Assembly: GCF_004346195.1 (NCBI RefSeq)
Contig: NZ_SMAK01000002.1
Span: 62,001 to 126,000, forward strand
Length of the DNA: 64,000 nt
Source of the DNA: Tepidamorphus gemmatus
GTDB taxonomy: Bacteria > Pseudomonadota > Alphaproteobacteria > Rhizobiales > Tepidamorphaceae
Direction: 5' to 3'
The position numbers and the translations under genes are program-made. Below, in pieces: positions 10,374 to 20,304 of the stretch (the stretch's first letter is position 1; the number at the start of each line of letters is the position of its first letter). The notes beneath the pieces were generated by a model. The model was not told the DNA's origin. It saw nothing but the letters and a program-made list of their open reading frames with translations, and made no database searches.

Positions 10374-11777
10374 ATGGCTCACATTCACCCCGTCCATGTC
10401 GTCGGCGCCGGCCTCGCCGGCTCGGAAGCCGCCTGGCAGATTGCCGAGGCGGGGGTTCCGGTCGTCCTGCACGAGATGCGGCCCGTGCGCATGACCGAAG
10501 CTCATGTCGGCGATGGATGCGCCGAACTGGTCTGTTCGAACTCCTTCCGCTCCGACGACGCCGAAACGAATGCCGTCGGCCTGCTGCATGCCGAGATGCG
10601 CCGCTGCGGCTCGCTGATCATGGCGAGCGCCGACCGCAACCAGGTCCCTGCCGGCGGCGCGCTGGCGGTCGATCGGGTCGGCTTTTCCGATGCAGTGACC
10701 GCCGCGCTGTCGGCCCATCCGCGGATCGAGCTTCGTCGCGAAGAGATTGCGGGGCTGCCGCCAGAGGACTGGGACAGCGTCATCATCGCCACCGGCCCCC
10801 TGACCTCGCCTGCGCTCGCCGAGGCGATCCGCGCCGTCACGGGTGAGGACTCCCTTGCCTTCTTCGATGCGATCGCGCCGATCGTCTACAAGGACTCGAT
10901 CGACTTCTCGAAGGCCTGGTTCCAGTCGCGCTACGACAAGGCCGGTCCGGGAGGAACCGGCGCCGACTACATCAACTGTCCGATGGACCGCGACCGGTAC
11001 GAAGCCTTCGTCGACCTGCTGCTCGCCGGCGAGACATCGCAGTTCCGCGATTGGGAAAGGAACACGCCGTACTTCGACGGCTGTCTGCCGATCGAGGTGA
11101 TGGCAGCACGCGGCCGCGAGACGCTTCGGCACGGGCCGATGAAGCCGGTAGGACTGACCAATCCGCACGCGCCGGACGTCAAGCCCTATGCGGTCGTACA
11201 GCTTCGGCAGGACAATGCGCTCGGCACGCTCTACAATATGGTCGGTTTCCAGACCAAGCTGAAATACGGTGCCCAGGCCGCAATCTTCCGAACGATTCCG
11301 GGGCTGGAAAAGGCCGAGTTTGCCCGTTTCGGCGGCCTGCATCGCAACACCTTCCTGAACAGCCCGAAGCTGCTCGACGGCACGTTGCGGCTGAAGGCGA
11401 TGCCACGGTTGCGCTTCGCCGGCCAGGTCACCGGCGTCGAAGGATATGTCGAATCTGCTGCCATCGGGCTGCTCGCCGGTCGCTTTGCCGCCGCCGAGCG
11501 ATTTGGTCGCCCGGTCGATGTACCGCCGGCGACAACTGCGCTGGGCGCGTTGCTCGGCCACATCACCGGCGGGCATCTCGCCGAGGATGGCACGACCCGC
11601 AGCTTCCAACCGATGAACGTCAATTTCGGTCTGTTCCCACCCGTCAAGATCCCCCGCGTCCCGGGTGTCCGGCTGCGCGGCAAGGACAAGACGATCGCGC
11701 GCAGACGGGCGATGACCGCGCGGGCGCTCGCAGATCTCGACGGCTGGCTGGGCGGACCGGCGCTGGCGGCCGAATAG
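10374..11777 (+). CDS. trmFO: Methylenetetrahydrofolate-tRNA (uracil-5-)-methyltransferase TrmFO
   Basis: A 467-residue FAD- and folate-dependent enzyme that makes m5U54 (ribothymidine) in the T-loop of tRNA. The N-terminal dinucleotide-binding motif is [17 protein letters not shown]. Family blocks follow: [11 protein letters not shown], the [14 protein letters not shown] segment, [12 protein letters not shown], and [20 protein letters not shown] near the C terminus. Intact and of normal length. It stands alone on the plus strand, convergent with the NDUFAF6-like gene 25 bp away. Confidence 0.95.
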
Positions 11778-11802: not shown

Positions 11803-12690
11803 TCACCGCGATCGAGCCTCTCCGCAGCGCTGCGCATGACGGGCCGCGCGCCACAGCACCAGTTGCCGACGCCACTGCGGCACCACGCAGTTCGAGGCGA
11901 ACGGACGGTAGTCCGCCCGGTCCATTCGCTCGAGATAGGGCTTCACCAGCGCGATCGGCAGCAGGGCCGCCATCGCCTCCCTGCGGATGTCGGGAATGCA
12001 TCCGCCCGCATCGCAAAGATGCGCCCAAGCGACCTTGCGCAGCTCCGCGAGGGCGGCGAGCAGCTGCGGCGTCTCACGGCCGGCGAGAACGGTGGCGATG
12101 TCGGCGCCGTGCCGCGCCAACAGGTCCTCGGGCAGGAACACCTGCCCTCGAGCGGCATGGAACGGTATCGCTCGCATCAGACCCGTGAGCGCATAGGCGA
12201 CACCACCCTGCTGCGCCATGGCGGTGGCAGGCAGGCAGTCTCCGGCGCCCAGGACACGGATCCCGAGCCGCATCAGCGCCGAGGCCGTGGCGCGGCAGTA
12301 GCACTCCAGATCGGCGAGGGTTGGCATCGGATCGTCGTAGAGATCGAAGGTCCGCGCCTCGACCAGCTCCAGGAAGGGATCGAGCGGCAGATCGAACCGG
12401 TCGATAGTGTCGATCAGGGCAGCCGCGACCGGATGACGGCCGACCTCGCCGTGCCCGCAGCCGGTCAGCGCATCGCGCCACCATTGCAGGCGCATCTCGC
12501 CGGGAAGCGGATCGCTGACCAGATCCCGTACCCGCGCAACCTCGATGTTGAACGCGTAGAGCGCCTGCAGGGCCGGGCGCCGGTCGGCAGGCGCGAACAG
12601 CGTCGTGAGGTACCTGTCCTTGTCGCCGCGCCGGACGAGATCCTCACAAACCTCGAAGCTGGTCCACGACGCCGCCACTCCGCCCCTCAC
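11803..12690 (-). CDS. Squalene/phytoene synthase-fold protein, NDUFAF6-like
   Basis: A 295-residue all-helical prenyl-synthase-fold protein. The segment AFNIEVARVRDLVSDP...GEMRLQWW and the later GLMRAIPFHAARGQVFLPED match the mitochondrial complex I assembly factor NDUFAF6 better than carotenoid synthases. The first aspartate-rich motif (DDxxD type) of true phytoene or squalene synthases is missing, so prenyl-transfer activity is doubtful. The start is GTG at 12688-12690, overlapping the upstream Mth938-domain gene as GTGA. By analogy it may help build NADH dehydrogenase (inference). Confidence 0.8.
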   Translation of the reverse strand: MRGGVAASWTSFEVCEDLVRRGDKDRYLTTLFAPADRRPALQALYAFNIEVARVRDLVSDPLPGEMRLQWWRDALTGCGHGEVGRHPVAAALIDTIDRFDLPLDPFLELVEARTFDLYDDPMPTLADLECYCRATASALMRLGIRVLGAGDCLPATAMAQQGGVAYALTGLMRAIPFHAARGQVFLPEDLLARHGADIATVLAGRETPQLLAALAELRKVAWAHLCDAGGCIPDIRREAMAALLPIALVKPYLERMDRADYRPFASNCVVPQWRRQLVLWRAARHAQRCGEARSR

Positions 12691-13064
12691 GCGACTGCGA
12701 TCAGCGCCGCCCCGACCGACCGCTTCTCGGCCAGGAGAACGTTGTAGGTCCTCACTGCCGCACCGGTCGCCATCACCTCCAGCCTGATACCCTTCGACGA
12801 CAGCGCCGCCCGGAGATCGCGCGGCACCGCGACGATGTCCGCGCCGGTGCCGAGCAAGAGGAGCTCGGGGCGCGCTTCGGCCTCGAGAATTCGCACGAGA
12901 CTGCCAACGTTGATCTCGGACGGGCTCGTGACGGACCAGCCGTGAATGCCGTCCGGCGCGATCAGCAGGGATCCGCGATGCGACATGCCGGCGAACCGGA
13001 AGCCGCCATTCCCATAGGCCTCTATGGGCGCAAGGCCCGGATAGTGCGCTTCACGCATCCGCAT
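12687..13064 (-). CDS. Mth938-domain (DUF498) protein, NDUFAF3-like
   Basis: A 125-residue protein of the Mth938/DUF498 family. Diagnostic segments are LLLLGTGADIVAVPRDL and the C-terminal RTYNVLLAEKRSVGAALIAV. The human member NDUFAF3 is a complex I assembly factor. It lies 49 bp after secF on the same strand and overlaps the NDUFAF6-like gene by 4 bp, so the two are probably translated together. An alternative ATG is at codon 3. No enzymatic residues are known for the family. Confidence 0.85.
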   Translation of the reverse strand: MRMREAHYPGLAPIEAYGNGGFRFAGMSHRGSLLIAPDGIHGWSVTSPSEINVGSLVRILEAEARPELLLLGTGADIVAVPRDLRAALSSKGIRLEVMATGAAVRTYNVLLAEKRSVGAALIAVA

Positions 13065-13113
13065 GGGTCGGTCAGGGGCGGATCGCCACCCCTCTCACTG
13101 TCCGTCGTCCCGG

Positions 13114-14046
13114 TCAGCTGCTGCCCTGCGCGGCCGCCGCAGCGGCGTCGCCTCCGGGACGCAACCCGAGGTAATGCAGGATCGGCGCCGCCACGTAGAT
13201 CGAGGAGTAGGTCCCCACCAGGACGCCCCAGATCATTGCGAAAACGAAGCTGCGGATCACCTCGCCGCCGAAGACATAGAGCGCCACCAGCGCGAGCAAA
13301 GTGGTGAGCGACGTCATGACCGTGCGTGACAGCGTCTGGTTGATGCTGAGGTCGATCAGTTCGGGCACCGCCATTCGCTTGAATCGACGCGCATTCTCGC
13401 GGATCCGGTCGTAGACCACGACCGTGTCGTTCAGCGAATAGCCGACGATCGTCAGGATCGCGGCAATGCTCGAGAGGTTGAAGTCGAGCTGCAGGACGGC
13501 GAACAGGCCGATCGTCAGCACGACATCGTGAATCGTCGCGACGACGGCGCCGACGGCGTACTGCCATTCGAACCGGAACCAGATGTAGATCAGGATCGCG
13601 ATGATCGCCACGATGACGGCAATCGTGCCGGTGCGCGCCAGTTCTGCGCTCACGGTCGGTCCGACGATTTCGACGCGACGGTATTCGACGCTGTCGCCAA
13701 GTGCCTCGCGCACCTTCGTGATCACAGCCTGCTGGGCAAGTTCGCCGCCCGGCTGCTCCACCACGCGGATCAGCACGTCGTTGGGACCACCGAACTCCTG
13801 GATCTGGAGGTCGCCGAGCCCGAGCCCCGATAGCGTCGCACGCATCTGCGCGATGTCGGCGGGGCCATTCCGGGTCTGGACCTCGATCAGCGAGCCGCCG
13901 CGGAAATCGATTCCGAAATTCAGCCCGACAACCAGGAACAGCACGATCGACAACACCGACATGGCGGCCGACAGCGGCATCGTGAAGCGCCGCAGCCACA
14001 TGAAGCGGATATGGGTGTCGTCGGGAACCAGCCGAAGCAGCCGCAC
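13114..14046 (-). CDS. secF: Protein translocase subunit SecF
   Basis: A 310-residue inner-membrane subunit that, with SecD, uses proton-motive force to complete Sec-dependent export. It has an N-terminal helix, the conserved periplasmic entry GLNFGIDFRGGSLIE, and a bundle of five helices with the family block LTIVGYSLNDTVVVYDRIREN. The C terminus is alanine-rich. It follows secD by 22 bp and belongs to the yajC-secD-secF transcript. Confidence 0.95.
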   Translation of the reverse strand: MRLLRLVPDDTHIRFMWLRRFTMPLSAAMSVLSIVLFLVVGLNFGIDFRGGSLIEVQTRNGPADIAQMRATLSGLGLGDLQIQEFGGPNDVLIRVVEQPGGELAQQAVITKVREALGDSVEYRRVEIVGPTVSAELARTGTIAVIVAIIAILIYIWFRFEWQYAVGAVVATIHDVVLTIGLFAVLQLDFNLSSIAAILTIVGYSLNDTVVVYDRIRENARRFKRMAVPELIDLSINQTLSRTVMTSLTTLLALVALYVFGGEVIRSFVFAMIWGVLVGTYSSIYVAAPILHYLGLRPGGDAAAAAAQGSS

Positions 14047-14068
14047 TGTCGTGTTCCTTGTCGTCCGC

Positions 14069-15673
14069 TCAGATCGGCACCACGGATGGTCGCCGCAGGC
14101 GGACCCACTCGGCGACGATCAGCCGGTTGAACAGAAAGGCCGTGAATACGGTTGTGACGATGCCGATGGCCAGCGTCACCGCGAAGCCGCGGATCGGCCC
14201 CGATCCCAGATAGAACAGGATCACGGCGGCGATCAACGTCGTGATATTGGCATCCATGATCGTGCCGAGCGCTCGTCGGTAGCCCGAATCGATCGATGCG
14301 ATGGCGCTCTTCCCGGCCTTCTGCTCCTCCCGTATTCGTTCGTAGATCAGCACGTTGGCGTCTACTGCCATGCCGATGGTGAGCACGATGCCGGCGATGC
14401 CCGGCAATGTCAGCGTTGCCCCCAGCATCGACAGCACGCCAATGATCAATGCGATGTTGACCGCCAGTGCGATGTCGGCGAACAGGCCGAGCAACCCGTA
14501 GACCCAGAGCATGAACACGACGACGGCGAGCGTGCCGATGATCGCGGCGATCTGCCCGGCGGCAATCGAGTCGGCGCCCAGCCCGGGTCCGACAGTGCGT
14601 TCCTCGAGGATCGTCAGCGGCGCCGGCAGCGCACCGGCTCTCAGCAGGATGGCGAGATCGTTCGCCTCCTCGACGGTGAAGTTCCCGCTGATCTGGCCCG
14701 ATCCGCCCAGGATCGGCTCTCGGATCACCGGCGCGCTGATCACCTCGCCGTCGAGAATGATGGCAAAGGGACGGCCGACATTCTGCTGCGTCGCGGCGGC
14801 GAAACGGCGCCCGCCATTCGTGTTGAAGCGGAACGAGACGATGGGCTCGTTGGTGCGCTGGTCGAATCCCGGTTGCGCGTCGACGAGATCCTCGCCCGAC
14901 ACCATCACCCGGCGTTCGATCAGATATGGAACCGGCGGATCGTCGCGGGAGTAGAGGATCTCGGAGTCGGGCGGCGGACGGCCGTTCAGGGCCTCGGCCA
15001 CCGGCATCGACAGATCAACCAGCCGGAAGGTGAGCTGCGCGGTCTGACCGATCAGCGCCTTAAGGCGCGACGGATCGTCGAGACCAGGCACCTGAACGAG
15101 GATCCGGTCCGGTCCCTGGCGCTGGATGGTCGGCTCGGTCGTTCCGAGTTCGTCGATGCGCCGCCGCACGATCTCGATGGACTGCGAGACCGCCGAGCTG
15201 ATGCGCTGGTTGATGCCTTCTTCGGTCAGCGTCAGCGTGATCAGCCCGTCGCCGTCACTGGCAATGTCGACGGTGCGCCCTCCGCCACCGCCCAGCACCG
15301 ATCCGACCGGCTCGGACAGACTGCGCAGTGCCCGCAACGCCTCCTCGACCTGTCCGGGCTCGCGAATGCGCACCTGGACCGTCCGGCCCTGCCCGGTGAG
15401 CCCGGTATAGCCGATGCGACGGTCGCGCAGCGTCTGGCGCACGTCATCGCGCAGGGCGTTGAGCCGGTCGGCGACAACCGCCTCGGCATCTACCGCCAGC
15501 AGGATGTGCGAGCCGCCCTGCAGGTCGAGGCCCAGCACCAGCTGACGGTGCGGAATCCAGTCCGGCCACGCGGCGAGCTGCTCCTTCGAGAAGAAGTTCG
15601 GAATGCAGGCGAGTATCCCGACGAGACAGACGCCGAGTATGAAGAGGACGTTCCAGCGGGAGAAGTGAAGCAT
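14069..15673 (-). CDS. secD: Protein translocase subunit SecD
   Basis: A 534-residue inner-membrane protein, partner of SecF. An N-terminal helix is followed by LGLDLQGGSHILLAVD (the D1 motif), a large periplasmic P1 domain, and a six-helix RND-type bundle. The latter contains GMAVDANVLIYERIREEQ, which includes the aspartate used for proton coupling, and GTIMDANITTLIAAVILF. It sits 36 bp after yajC. Confidence 0.96.
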   Translation of the reverse strand: MLHFSRWNVLFILGVCLVGILACIPNFFSKEQLAAWPDWIPHRQLVLGLDLQGGSHILLAVDAEAVVADRLNALRDDVRQTLRDRRIGYTGLTGQGRTVQVRIREPGQVEEALRALRSLSEPVGSVLGGGGGRTVDIASDGDGLITLTLTEEGINQRISSAVSQSIEIVRRRIDELGTTEPTIQRQGPDRILVQVPGLDDPSRLKALIGQTAQLTFRLVDLSMPVAEALNGRPPPDSEILYSRDDPPVPYLIERRVMVSGEDLVDAQPGFDQRTNEPIVSFRFNTNGGRRFAAATQQNVGRPFAIILDGEVISAPVIREPILGGSGQISGNFTVEEANDLAILLRAGALPAPLTILEERTVGPGLGADSIAAGQIAAIIGTLAVVVFMLWVYGLLGLFADIALAVNIALIIGVLSMLGATLTLPGIAGIVLTIGMAVDANVLIYERIREEQKAGKSAIASIDSGYRRALGTIMDANITTLIAAVILFYLGSGPIRGFAVTLAIGIVTTVFTAFLFNRLIVAEWVRLRRPSVVPI

Positions 15674-15709
15674 GTGGGGTGCGCTGTGGGCGGGGCGGCG
15701 GCTGCCGGA

Positions 15710-16042
15710 CTAGCCTTCGTCCTTGACCGGTTCGCCCTTTGCGCGGACTTCGGCGACCATCGGACGGGCGACACGTACTCGGATCCCCTCGGCGATCTCG
15801 ACCTGGATCTCGCGCTCGTCGATCACCTTGGAGATCTTGCCGATCAGCCCGCCCGCCGTCACGATGGTATCGCCGCGGCGCAGCGAGGCGATCATCTCCT
15901 GCTGCTGCTTCATCCGGCGCTGCTGAGGCCGGAGGATCAGGAAGTACAGCACGACGAAGATCAGCACGAACGGCAGGAGCGAGATCAGGAAGTCGCCCCC
16001 TCCGCCCGCCGGCGATTGAGCGAAGGCTGGCGTGACGAACAT
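15710..16042 (-). CDS. yajC: Sec translocon accessory subunit YajC
   Basis: A 110-residue single-pass membrane protein. The helix is LPFVLIFVVLYFLILRP, followed by QQRRMKQQQEMIASLRRGD and the cytoplasmic segment IVTAGGLIGKI. It associates with SecDF. The start MFVTPAFAQ (16040-16042) is the usual alphaproteobacterial N terminus; in-frame sequence up to 16105 is not conserved. It is the first gene of the yajC-secD-secF-DUF498-NDUFAF6-like run and diverges from the DUF815 ATPase. Confidence 0.94.
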   Translation of the reverse strand: MFVTPAFAQSPAGGGGDFLISLLPFVLIFVVLYFLILRPQQRRMKQQQEMIASLRRGDTIVTAGGLIGKISKVIDEREIQVEIAEGIRVRVARPMVAEVRAKGEPVKDEG

Positions 16043-16285
16043 TCTGTCCTCCCGGTCTTGCATGCGCCCTGCGGACCCGTGCGCGGGGCAAAACTCACCA
16101 GGCACCGTCCGCAGGATGCGGGCGGCGCGAGCCGGCGGAATATAACGACGCAGCCAAGCTTTGCAAACCGGCAGACACGCATGGCGCCGCGCGTCCGTTG
16201 CGATTGACCCGCCGGGTCCGCCCCACTACCGTCCGCGCGCGGCAGCGGTGGACAACAACTGCTCGGGCCAAAGGGAGATCGGAAG

Positions 16286-17176
16286 GTGACAAGCGACGCG
16301 GATCGACTGGCGGCGCTGCTCGGCCGGATCGCCGACAGCCTGGAACGCATGGCCCCCCCGCCCCCGCCCGCCACCGATCTGAACGCCACCGATGCCTTTG
16401 TCTGGCAGACGTCGCCGCCTGGACTGATCGCGGTTCCCGCCGTCAACCGTGTAGACATGGTGCTGCTGCGCGGCATCGACCGCGCCCGCGATATGCTTGT
16501 GGAGAACACCGAACGCTTCGCCCGCGGCCTGCCGGCGAACAATGCCCTGTTGTGGGGCGCGCGCGGCATGGGCAAGAGCTCACTCATCAAGGCGGCTCAT
16601 GCCGATGTGAACGCCCGTCTGGCCCGTGAGGCCATTCGCCCGCTGAAGCTGGTCGAGATCCACCGCGAGGACATCCAGTCCCTGCCCGATCTGATGGCGC
16701 TGGCACGCGCCAGCGACTTCCGGTTCCTGATCTTCTGCGACGATCTGTCCTTCGACTTCGACGATACCTCCTACAAGTCGCTGAAGGCCGCTCTGGAGGG
16801 AGGCCTCGAGGGACGTCCTCACAACACACTGTTCTACGCCACCTCGAACCGTCGCCATCTCCTGCCCCGCGACATGATGGAAAACGAGCGCTCCACCGCG
16901 ATCAATCCGTCCGAGGCGGTCGAGGAGAAGGTGTCGCTGTCTGACCGGTTCGGCCTCTGGCTCGGCTTCCACCGGTGCAGCCAGGACGACTACCTGGAGA
17001 TGGTGCGCGGCTATGCGCGCCATTTCGGGCTCAAGGTGGATGCTGAGCAGCTCGAGCGGGCGTCGCTCGAATGGGCGACGACGCGCGGCAGCCGCTCCGG
17101 CCGCGTCGCCTGGCAGTTCATCCAGGATCTTGCTGGGCGCCTCGGGCAACGGCTGGATCCGGGCGCCGGTACCTGA
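16286..17176 (+). CDS. DUF815-family AAA+ ATPase
   Basis: A 296-residue ATP-binding protein of the DUF815 family. Walker A is WGARGMGKSSLIKA (about residues 91-104), Walker B is FLIFCDDLSFD, and sensor-type YATSNRRHLLPRDM follows. A KVSLSDRFGLWLGFH segment is typical. The cellular function is not established. It starts with GTG, preceded by AGGGAGA, and is transcribed away from yajC. A perfect hairpin lies just downstream. Confidence 0.85.
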   Translation: MTSDADRLAALLGRIADSLERMAPPPPPATDLNATDAFVWQTSPPGLIAVPAVNRVDMVLLRGIDRARDMLVENTERFARGLPANNALLWGARGMGKSSLIKAAHADVNARLAREAIRPLKLVEIHREDIQSLPDLMALARASDFRFLIFCDDLSFDFDDTSYKSLKAALEGGLEGRPHNTLFYATSNRRHLLPRDMMENERSTAINPSEAVEEKVSLSDRFGLWLGFHRCSQDDYLEMVRGYARHFGLKVDAEQLERASLEWATTRGSRSGRVAWQFIQDLAGRLGQRLDPGAGT

Positions 17177-17257: not shown

Positions 17258-18598
17258 TCAGTCCCCCGCCAGGTACTTCAGCGGATCGACCGGCGTCGAT
17301 CCCTTGCGAAGTTCGAAGTGAATCTGCGGCGTCTGCACCGATCCGGTCTGGCCCGCCTTGGCGATGACCTGACCGCGCGTCACCACGTCGCCGCGCTTTA
17401 CCAGAATGTCGCTGTTGTGCGCATAGGCCGTCACCCAGTCGTCGGCATGGCGGATCAGCACAAGATTGCCGTAGCCCTTCAGCTCGTTGCCGGCATAGGC
17501 GACGACGCCATTCTCGGCCGCCCTGACGGAGGTGCCCTCCGGGACCGAGATGTTGATGCCGTCATTCTTGCCGCCGTCGGCCTTGTCGCCGAATGCGGAG
17601 ATGATGCGACCACGCGCCGGCCAGCGGAAATTCGCTGCCGATAGGGCCGCCGGCTCCGGAATCCCGGCCCGCTTGTCGGCAGCCGCGTCACTGGCATCTG
17701 CCGGTGCGGCGTAGGCGACCTGCTGAGGCTGTTCCCCGGGCGCAGGCAGTGCATTGGCCTCGATACCCTGCTTCACCGCAGGCGGCTGTGCCGGCGCGGA
17801 GGCGATCGCCGGATCGATGCCGCGCGTCTCCCCTGCCGCCGACGGCGAGGTTGCGGCGGCGGATTGCCGGACGGGTTGGGCAGCGGCGGCGGATGCAACA
17901 GTCGTGGCACCGGGAATGCGGACCGTCTGCCCAATCTTCAGGCCGTAGGGAGGCTGCAGATTGTTGGCGGCGATGATGTCGCCCGGACGCACATTGTATT
18001 TCCTGCCGAGCGAGTAGACCGTCTCGCCCGATGTCACAGTGTGCGTCCCGCCGGAAGCGGCAGGACGCGTCTGAACCGGCGCACCGGCGGACGCGGCGAC
18101 GCTCGCCGGCGTTGGACCGGCCACCTTCACGGTGGCGCCGGCGACCTCAGGCCGTACCCAGCCGTTATGCGCCTGCGAGAACACCGGGATTACCAGTCGC
18201 TGCCCGGGCGGCACGGCGTTCGGATCGGTGATGTTGTTGACCTTCATCAACGCGGTGGTCGGAACACCGTAGCGATTGGCGATGGTGAAAACCGTCTCGC
18301 CGGGCCCTACCACGACCGAGGTGCCGTCGGAGGGTTCGAGCGGCGCCGAGGCGACGGGCAACTGACCATAGGCCGGTTGTGCGAGCGGATTGGAAGCCGG
18401 CCGGCCGTTGGTCACGTCTGCCGTCGGCGTGATCGACCCGGTAACGTCCTGATCGAACGAGCCGCCGAAGAACGAGCCGAACCGAGTAGAATCGGAGCTG
18501 CAGCCGGCGACCATCATGCCCGCCGCTCCGAGGATCGCGATCCTCGCCAGCAACGACGAGGGCAGATTGTCCAGCACCTTACGCATCGTACCACTCAC
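17258..18598 (-). CDS. LysM/M23 lipoprotein, NlpD/DipM-like
   Basis: A 446-residue envelope protein. The signal sequence ends in the lipobox MVAGC (lipidated Cys33). Two LysM domains follow (VGPGETVFTIANRYGVP and VTSGETVYSLGRKYNVRPGD), then a proline/alanine-rich linker and a C-terminal M23 (LytM) domain from about residue 325. The zinc-site residues are partly lost: the usual H...D motif reads KNDGINIS, while YAHN and QIHFEL keep their histidines. It is therefore probably an amidase activator acting in cell separation rather than a peptidase (inference from NlpD/EnvC). It lies downstream of pcm, as nlpD does in many proteobacteria. Confidence 0.88.
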   Translation of the reverse strand: MSGTMRKVLDNLPSSLLARIAILGAAGMMVAGCSSDSTRFGSFFGGSFDQDVTGSITPTADVTNGRPASNPLAQPAYGQLPVASAPLEPSDGTSVVVGPGETVFTIANRYGVPTTALMKVNNITDPNAVPPGQRLVIPVFSQAHNGWVRPEVAGATVKVAGPTPASVAASAGAPVQTRPAASGGTHTVTSGETVYSLGRKYNVRPGDIIAANNLQPPYGLKIGQTVRIPGATTVASAAAAQPVRQSAAATSPSAAGETRGIDPAIASAPAQPPAVKQGIEANALPAPGEQPQQVAYAAPADASDAAADKRAGIPEPAALSAANFRWPARGRIISAFGDKADGGKNDGINISVPEGTSVRAAENGVVAYAGNELKGYGNLVLIRHADDWVTAYAHNSDILVKRGDVVTRGQVIAKAGQTGSVQTPQIHFELRKGSTPVDPLKYLAGD

Positions 18599-18636
18599 GC
18601 CGCTCGGAAACCTCGGACACCATTAATGCGCGTTGA

Positions 18637-18653
18637 GGTAAAGATTGACTTAA
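18637..18653 (-). promoter_or_regulatory. CtrA-like site upstream of the nlpD-like gene
   Basis: Read on the minus strand, TTAAGTCAATCTTTACC fits TTAA-N7-TTAACC with one mismatch in the second half-site. It lies 38 bp upstream of the start of the LysM/M23 lipoprotein gene, a plausible cell-division target. A single imperfect match is weak evidence. Confidence 0.3.
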
Positions 18654-18857
18654 ACGCCGGTGAGGTGCGGAAACCTGTTCCGGAACGTCAATTCGGAACT
18701 TCCCCCTTTACTCATCCGGGACCCCCGCGTGGTGGCTCATGTACCGGCCTTGCGGGTCGGCCCGATTCGATGCGCCGACATCCATGCCGGCGCCCGCCTC
18801 GCCCGTCCGAAACGACGCGGGGGATCGCTGTGCCCGAGACCGGCTCGCTCTTGCGAT

Positions 18858-19526
18858 TCAGATCGCCTCGGCCTTGCCCGGCACCAGCGGCACGAAGCGC
18901 ACGGGGATCAGTTCCTCGTCCTCGTAGCTCTCGTCCGTGCGCACCAGACGGTGCAGATGCTGGGCTCCGCCGACAGGCCCGACCGGGAGCACCATGATGC
19001 CGCCGACCTTGAGCTGCTCGACCAGTGCCTGCGGCACGCGCTCGGCAGCAGCGGTCACGATGATGCGGTCGAACGGCGCCTGCTGCGGCCAGCCCTTCAT
19101 GCCGTCGCCTAGCATGGCGGTGATGTTCGCGATACCGAGCGCCTTGAACCGCTGCTCGGCCTGCCGCAACAGCGTGCTGTAGCGTTCGATCGTGTAGACG
19201 CGCCGGCACAGCCTGGCCAGCACCGCCGCCTGGTAACCCGAGCCGGTGCCGACCTCCAGCACCTTGTCGCGATCGCCGACCGACAGCTTCTCTGTCATGT
19301 AGGCGACAATGAAGGGCTGGCTGATCGTCTGACCGCAGTCAATCGGCAGCGATCGGTCGGCATAAGCGATATCGGCGTATGCGGCCTCGACGAACAACTC
19401 TCGGGGGACAGTCTCGATCGCCTTCAGCACGCGCGGATCGCGGATGCCCTGCGAGCGCAGGCCGAGGATCAGCCGTGCGACGGCGACCCTGCCCTCCCCG
19501 TCCTCGTCCAGACCTCCTGCCGCCAT
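18858..19526 (-). CDS. pcm: Protein-L-isoaspartate O-methyltransferase
   Basis: A 222-residue SAM-dependent repair enzyme that methylates L-isoaspartyl residues in aged proteins. It carries the substrate-loop motif CGQTISQPFIVAYMTE, the SAM motif VLEVGTGSGYQAAVLA, TIERYSTL, and IVTAAAERVPQALVEQL. It starts 7 bp after surE. The surE-pcm-nlpD order is widely conserved in proteobacteria. A second, more divergent paralogue lies near 41.5 kb. Confidence 0.95.
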   Translation of the reverse strand: MAAGGLDEDGEGRVAVARLILGLRSQGIRDPRVLKAIETVPRELFVEAAYADIAYADRSLPIDCGQTISQPFIVAYMTEKLSVGDRDKVLEVGTGSGYQAAVLARLCRRVYTIERYSTLLRQAEQRFKALGIANITAMLGDGMKGWPQQAPFDRIIVTAAAERVPQALVEQLKVGGIMVLPVGPVGGAQHLHRLVRTDESYEDEELIPVRFVPLVPGKAEAI

Positions 19527-19533
19527 GAGCTGG

Positions 19534-20304
19534 TCATGCCTCCTGCCCGATCGCCAGGATCTCGAGCAGCCTCGCGTGCGCGACGGTATCGGTCAAGTTC
19601 AGTGTCAGCGGCGTGATCGAAATGCAGCCGTCGTAGACGGCTCTGAGGTCGGTACCGCGCGCTGGGCTCGATTTGCGACGTTCGAAGCCTGTCCAGAAAT
19701 ACGGGTTGCCGCGGCCGTCATGACGCTGCTCGATATAGAGGAGCGACTGGTCGCGCCGCCCCTGCTGGGTGATCTCGTGGCCGCGCACATCAGCCGGAGC
19801 GCAATCCGGGAAGTTGATGTTGAGAACGACGGACGGATCGATGTCCGCCTTGAGCAGCATCCGGATGATGCGGGCGCCGTGCCGGGCGGCCGTCTCCCAG
19901 TGGATCATCGAGGGATCGCGGTATGCCTGGCTCAAGGCGAACGACCGGACGCCGAGCAGTGAGCCCTCGAAGGCGCCGGCGATGGTGCCGGAGTAGGTCA
20001 CGTCGTCGGCGAGGTTCTGACCGCGGTTGACACCCGACAGCACCAGGTCGGGGCGGCGATCCTTCATGACGTGCTTGAGGCCCATGATGACGCAGTCGGT
20101 CGGCGTGCCCTTGACCGCGAAGTGCCGGTCGCCGACCTCGCGCAACCGCAGCGGATCGTTCAGCGTCAGCGAGTGCGATGCCCCGCTCTGGTCGGTCTCC
20201 GGGGCGATGATCCATACGTCGTCGGAAAGTTCCCGGGCGATCCCTTCGAGGATCCTCAGCCCCGGCGCGTGGATACCGTCATCATTGGTGACCAGGATGC
20301 GCAT
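19534..20304 (-). CDS. surE: 5'/3'-nucleotidase SurE
   Basis: A 256-residue metal-dependent nucleoside monophosphate phosphatase of stationary-phase survival. The metal-binding start MRILVTNDDGIHAPGL is diagnostic; DQSGASHSLTL, VKGTPTDCVIMGL, LVLSGVNRGQNLADDVTYSG and VLNINFP follow. It lies between serS and pcm on the same strand. Intact. Confidence 0.96.
   Translation of the reverse strand: MRILVTNDDGIHAPGLRILEGIARELSDDVWIIAPETDQSGASHSLTLNDPLRLREVGDRHFAVKGTPTDCVIMGLKHVMKDRRPDLVLSGVNRGQNLADDVTYSGTIAGAFEGSLLGVRSFALSQAYRDPSMIHWETAARHGARIIRMLLKADIDPSVVLNINFPDCAPADVRGHEITQQGRRDQSLLYIEQRHDGRGNPYFWTGFERRKSSPARGTDLRAVYDGCISITPLTLNLTDTVAHARLLEILAIGQEA

Follow-up and report, generated by a model that had tools for sequence, protein, structure and literature searches.

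In a stretch of 64,000 nucleotides from the alphaproteobacterium Tepidamorphus gemmatus (contig NZ_SMAK01000002.1, positions 62,001 to 126,000; hereafter the window), the minus-strand genes yajC, secD and secF are followed by genes for a DUF498/Mth938-domain protein and a protein of the squalene/phytoene synthase (SQS_PSY) family. These two proteins belong to the families of the assembly factors NDUFAF3 and NDUFAF6, respectively, and probably aid the assembly of NADH:quinone oxidoreductase (complex I), acting on its Q module and the membrane subunit NuoH. The NDUFAF6-like protein has lost the catalytic aspartates of its enzymatic relatives and falls in a clade of its own, the gene cluster is conserved in related genomes, and within the class the DUF498 gene is seldom found without complex I.

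A synthase fold without the catalytic aspartates

A preliminary description of this DNA, made from the sequence alone, held that the SQS_PSY protein lacks the first aspartate-rich motif of phytoene synthases. Our alignments bear this out and extend the loss to the second motif. Aligned with a CrtB-like protein and other paralogues, the window protein has A-RVR-D (residues 52–56) and A-IPF-H (residues 174–178) at the DxxxD sites, and both aspartate-rich motifs of the squalene/phytoene synthases HpnC, HpnD and CrtB are missing. We examined these positions in 59 aligned orthologues, drawn from 61 kept of 112 orthologue open reading frames (ORFs) under a limit of <65% identity; the window protein replaces L047, L099 and the short L184 are omitted, and 15 rows were marked as unusual in residue composition. 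Residue 52 is alanine in 48 of the 59 and aspartate in none, residue 174 is alanine in 48 and aspartate in one (L155), and residue 178 is histidine in 48 and aspartate in one (L144). Residue 56 is glutamate in 46 and aspartate in 12. A complete DxxxD motif occurs in none of the 59, and neither do both aspartates of the second motif together; AxxxD/E combined with A/SxxxH is present in 37.

The replacements in the window protein are those described for two eukaryotes. Human and Arabidopsis NDUFAF6 carry AxxxD and AxxxH or SxxxH in place of the DxxxD motifs (PMC12470011, in excerpt), and according to the available part of a second paper both motifs are missing from NDUFAF6 and its orthologues (PMC8007014). 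Through these published letters and the common SQS_PSY fold, rather than by direct comparison with eukaryotic sequences, we liken the bacterial protein to NDUFAF6 (C8orf38); NDUFAF6 was not among the PDB matches of the window protein.

A quick maximum-likelihood tree of bacterial sequences also sets the protein apart from the synthases. It comprises 29 of the 59 aligned orthologues and 27 paralogue ORFs hand-picked from L001–L045, some near-copies and partial ORFs being omitted, and a single branch separates all 29 from the paralogues, which are of Hpn/CrtB type and include this genome's own CrtB-like protein (Shimodaira–Hasegawa-like approximate likelihood ratio test, SH-aLRT, 100). The fold itself is predicted to be kept, since an AlphaFold2 model based on the 59-sequence alignment (predicted local distance difference test, pLDDT, 95.9) resembles synthase structures: its best PDB fold matches are a CrtM-like protein, dehydrosqualene synthase and HpnC (TM-score by query 0.71–0.81 for the five best). 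The window protein therefore has its fold and Pfam family in common with HpnC, HpnD and CrtB but differs from them in its lost aspartates and separate clade.

Could the protein nevertheless be an enzyme acting on an isoprenoid diphosphate, of the squalene/phytoene type? The intact fold, the strong PF00494 match (Table 1) and the glutamate or aspartate at residue 56 in 58 of the 59 orthologues speak for such an activity, but the near-complete loss of aspartate at residues 52, 174 and 178 speaks against it. In addition, the protein scores under all five NCBIfam equivalog cut-offs that it matched (among them HpnD, 153.4 bits for a cut-off of 278.6; HpnC, 76.5 for 250.45; and cyanobacterial CrtB, 70.3 for 550). 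These cut-offs do not decide the matter alone, because the CrtB-like paralogue of the same genome also falls short of its own best one (414.3 for 500 bits). That paralogue, encoded elsewhere in the genome, has intact DDAVD and DVGED motifs, and its gene adjoins an amine-oxidase-family ORF that we take for a crtI-type desaturase. Moreover, a nematode relative of NDUFAF6 is inactive as both squalene synthase and phytoene synthase (PMC12470011, in excerpt). We consider a remaining synthase activity highly improbable. The lost motifs, the sub-cut-off scores and the separate CrtB-like gene support the earlier warning that "phytoene synthase" is a misleading label for the NDUFAF6-like gene.

The DUF498 protein matches its domain over the full length (positions 1–109 of 109), and its PDB relatives include 2fi9 (E 1.4e-37) and 2fvt (E 9.8e-36). 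Its assignment to NDUFAF3 (C3orf60) is based on this common full-length domain, PF04430, together with the neighbourhood; the family is broader than NDUFAF3, as AAMDC also has a Mth938 domain.

Conservation and layout of the cluster

The ORF list and Pfam matches confirm the gene order yajC, secD, secF, DUF498, SQS_PSY given in the preliminary description, and the order recurs in relatives. Among 80 named loci picked by similarity, which are mainly from Hyphomicrobiales and some of which are cut by contig ends, DUF498 was found near the NDUFAF6-like gene in 77, SecF in 78, SecD in 76 and YajC in 75. Where found, DUF498 is next to the NDUFAF6-like gene among the genes sought, with at most 198 bases between the match ends. 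We also drew on 385 genomes sampled evenly from the window's class, taken to be Alphaproteobacteria on the strength of the named relatives. Of its members, 120 were common to both lists of 150 best matches, and 100 of these have the two genes on one contig. The genes lie no more than 10 kb apart in 97 of the 100 (the exceptions are G105, G164 and G175); in 73, the starts of the two matches are separated by 1.35 to 10 kb; linkage has thus been kept despite intervening sequence.

Since the same order is found in related genomes, the arrangement is more than chance. It could still be an ancestral gene order that has simply persisted, with no functional link between the genes, as the flanking DUF815 (70 of 80 loci) and trmFO-like (60 of 80) genes, whose functions are probably unrelated, are also conserved, and as the 80 loci were chosen by similarity and mostly represent one order. 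The linkage in the class sample and the tight spacing in the window argue against this explanation, which we regard as distinctly unlikely. In the window, the gaps separating yajC, secD, secF and DUF498 are 36, 22 and 49 bp.

The last two genes were originally described as overlapping by 4 bp. The sequence does contain this overlap (GTGA, 12690–12687) if the first GTG of the NDUFAF6-like gene is its start, but the start is uncertain: an alternative in-frame GTG lies 12 bases downstream, at 12678, and the purine-rich stretch AGGGGCGG upstream of it is more ribosome-binding-like than the sequence before the first GTG. Because of this second GTG, the overlap is possible but unproven, and we do not treat it as established. 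If 12678 is the real start, as it may be, the genes are 8 bp apart; they are tightly packed whichever GTG is used.

Table 1. Genes of the cluster and its immediate neighbours, with positions in the window
Feature	Position	Strand	Supporting match
NDUFAF6-like protein, SQS_PSY fold, 295 amino acids, GTG start	11803..12690	-	PF00494, 220.5 bits (cut-off 26)
DUF498/Mth938-domain protein, NDUFAF3 family, 125 amino acids	12687..13064	-	PF04430, 115.3 bits (cut-off 33)
secF, 310 amino acids	13114..14046	-	PF02355, 241.3 bits
secD, 534 amino acids	14069..15673	-	SecDF_P1_head, SecD_1st, SecD_SecF_C (Pfam)
yajC ORF, 131 amino acids; true start may be internal	15710..16105	-	PF02699, 98.2 bits
trmFO-like gene, convergent neighbour	10374..11777	+	GIDA family, PF01134, 329.6 bits
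DUF815 ATPase, divergent neighbour	16286..17176	+	PF05673, 342.3 bits

The GIDA-family neighbour is presumably trmFO. Further neighbours, at 17258–20304, are ordinary (LysM/M23 peptidase, PCMT methyltransferase and SurE).

At 13 class loci chosen by DUF498, SecF is present in 10, SecD directly in two and neither in one. Outside the class, 47 genomes have a DUF498 match. In eight stretches taken around such matches, yajC-secD-secF precede DUF498 in two (G599 and G679), and none of the eight contains an NDUFAF6-like match. In a wider phylum sample, no NDUFAF6-like match better than 5.8e-45 was found outside the class, where the weaker SQS_PSY matches are probably Hpn-type paralogues. An E-value limit alone misses family members, since divergent NDUFAF6-like matches, at about 1e-32 to 1e-34, adjoin DUF498 in G070 and G066. 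These proteins are divergent or shortened (L184:2388-3122 in G070 and L185 in G066); in L184 the SQS_PSY match spans positions 5–157 of 263.

Other variants were seen within the class. In L006 and L007, secD directly adjoins DUF498, and in L188 it adjoins an ORF resembling Urate_ox_N; no strong secF match lies between, and secF seems to be located elsewhere in these genomes. In several class genomes a membrane-like ORF of ~170–240 amino acids, often but not invariably on the opposite strand, lies beside the DUF498 or NDUFAF6-like gene (for example, L004:1921-2526, L012:980-1489 and L044:2489-3109). In the three that were tested, the match to Urate_ox_N (PF06181) is confined to its later part. 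Such ORFs occur in eight of the 11 loci L003–L013 (by eye) and four of the seven class stretches L184–L190 (tblastn), and they lie between the two genes in L007, L008, L010, L011 and L185. None was found at the 80 named loci, and there is no room for one between the two genes in the window. This ORF could encode a further partner.

Co-occurrence with complex I

In the class sample, DUF498 nearly implies complex I; the converse fails. The complex I subunit gene NuoD, which is present in the T. gemmatus genome, was found in 333 of the 385 genomes and DUF498 in 208. The 52 genomes without NuoD and 14 with a weak NuoD match were searched for DUF498, SQS_PSY and NuoH, which were detected in 12, 26 and 21 of these 66, respectively. 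Of the control genomes, Caulobacter vibrioides gave matches to NuoD, DUF498 and SQS_PSY alike. DUF498 is present in 205 of the 345 genomes with NuoD or NuoH, versus three of the 40 with neither (Fisher p 8e-11, kinship ignored). As the three exceptions are incomplete or fragmented drafts (G011, 77% complete; G253, 68%; G383, 96% in 130 contigs) and two have congeners with NuoD (G023 and G332 for G253, G114 for G383), none is a convincing complex-I-free genome. Five genomes counted as having NuoD (G024, G092, G156, G254 and G333) have weak NuoD, no NuoH and no DUF498, so reassigning them adds no exceptions. With NuoD alone as the marker, DUF498 occurs in 181 of 286 good genomes with NuoD versus one of 29 without.

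The NDUFAF6-like gene shows the same pattern, with a match better than 1e-50 in only three of the 40 genomes that have neither NuoD nor NuoH (G011, G372 and G383); G372 is 77% complete, and its relatives in family f93 (G091, G202 and G294) have NuoD. Within the window's own order NuoD is near-universal (189 of 190 good genomes), so no contrast among close relatives is possible.

Several observations weigh against a close tie to complex I. The good genomes without NuoD are mostly small, 27 of the 29 being 2 Mb or less. Among good genomes of that size, DUF498 is present in 13 of 84 with NuoD versus none of 27 without (one-sided p 0.02, kinship ignored), and size-matching thus weakens the association. 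No DUF498 match was found in 135 of the 333 NuoD-positive class genomes, for example in families f29 (G026, G158 and G334) and f100 (G098, G207, G297 and G375), nor in the control E. coli, which has NuoD; the genes are therefore at most helpers and not universal requirements. (The f29 genome G256, with no NuoD, NuoH or DUF498, is uninformative, because its three NuoD-bearing relatives also lack DUF498.) In the phylum sample, where NuoH was not searched, DUF498 occurs in two of 12 genomes without NuoD versus 73 of 128 with it. The two exceptions are G673 (93% complete, 60 contigs) and G619 (100% complete), in which the DUF498 gene (L181:156-554) lies beside those for two radical-SAM/SPASM proteins, another setting for the family. 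The DUF498 family is therefore not bound to complex I everywhere. The motif replacements are not universal either, as NDUFAF6 of Drosophila and nematodes shows other letters at these sites (PMC12470011, in excerpt). Finally, among the papers listed by our literature searches on NDUFAF3 and NDUFAF6, we saw none that studied the two genes in bacteria.

Another possibility is that the two proteins assist Sec-dependent membrane-protein biogenesis in general, with complex I as one large client and the link indirect. SecDF has general clients, and DUF498 follows secF in G599 and G679 in stretches that contain no NDUFAF6-like match; the frequency of SecF at the 13 class loci chosen by DUF498 fits as well. 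However, DUF498 is rare in the class without complex I, although SecDF, general by textbook account, is presumably present there as well. In a published table, moreover, the eukaryotic relatives of both appear among the complex I assembly factors, NDUFAF3 for the Q module and NDUFAF6 for the proximal pump module, with Lemire 2017 named for the latter (PMC10910544, in excerpt). A general Sec role seems rather unlikely to us. The G599 and G679 loci, the general clients of SecDF and the many NuoD-bearing genomes without DUF498 leave unproven the earlier proposal that coupling to SecDF reflects a membrane-insertion step for complex I.

Proposed role and relation to earlier work

By analogy with the eukaryotic relatives of both proteins, their function in complex I assembly would most likely center on the Q module and on NuoH, the proximal membrane subunit and counterpart of ND1. 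The NDUFAF6-like protein would keep the all-helical isoprenoid-synthase fold without the aspartate pairs that hold magnesium and diphosphate; since these pairs are lost, it would most likely be a binding protein or chaperone at the membrane rather than a synthase. Both proteins would be produced alongside the Sec accessory complex. We consider the assembly function likely but infer it, as we do the step at NuoH, transcription as an operon and any physical link to SecDF; coupling to SecDF, with an insertion step there, is unproven. A bolder version, which we think unlikely, is that in alphaproteobacteria NuoH, once inserted, is handed to a station coupled to SecDF and made up of the Mth938 protein and the pseudo-synthase, the latter's former polyprenyl cavity holding a quinone or other isoprenoid lipid while the quinone chamber closes. 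Mitochondria would then have retained both soluble factors but not SecDF.

The T. gemmatus genome also encodes a protein of PF02636, which we take to be the family of C2orf56/NDUFAF7. In eukaryotes, NDUFAF3, C8orf38 and C2orf56 are a triple that co-evolves tightly in rate, according to the available part of a paper that cites Saada et al. 2009 (PMC3436739). The SecDF cluster is not described in the parts available of PMC8007014, PMC10910544, PMC7050145, PMC3436739 or PMC12470011, which does not imply its absence in print.

The central idea, the cluster and its NDUFAF3/C8orf38 link, is reportedly not new, the same genes and the same conclusion about membrane insertion having been presented before: Saada and colleagues, in the abstract of a 2009 paper, reportedly linked NDUFAF3 by gene order with SecF, SecD, YajC and C8ORF38 and inferred a role at the membrane-insertion stage. 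To that work we add one more genome, tests of motifs and clade, and counts that show how far the genes track complex I and in which genomes they fail to. The suggestion that the arrangement predates mitochondria fits its bacterial distribution, the sequences compared being bacterial only.

Should the bacterial genes act on complex I, the name "phytoene synthase" would need correcting wherever it is given to a gene of this cluster, and two human disease genes of unclear mechanism could be studied through simple genetics in culturable alphaproteobacteria.

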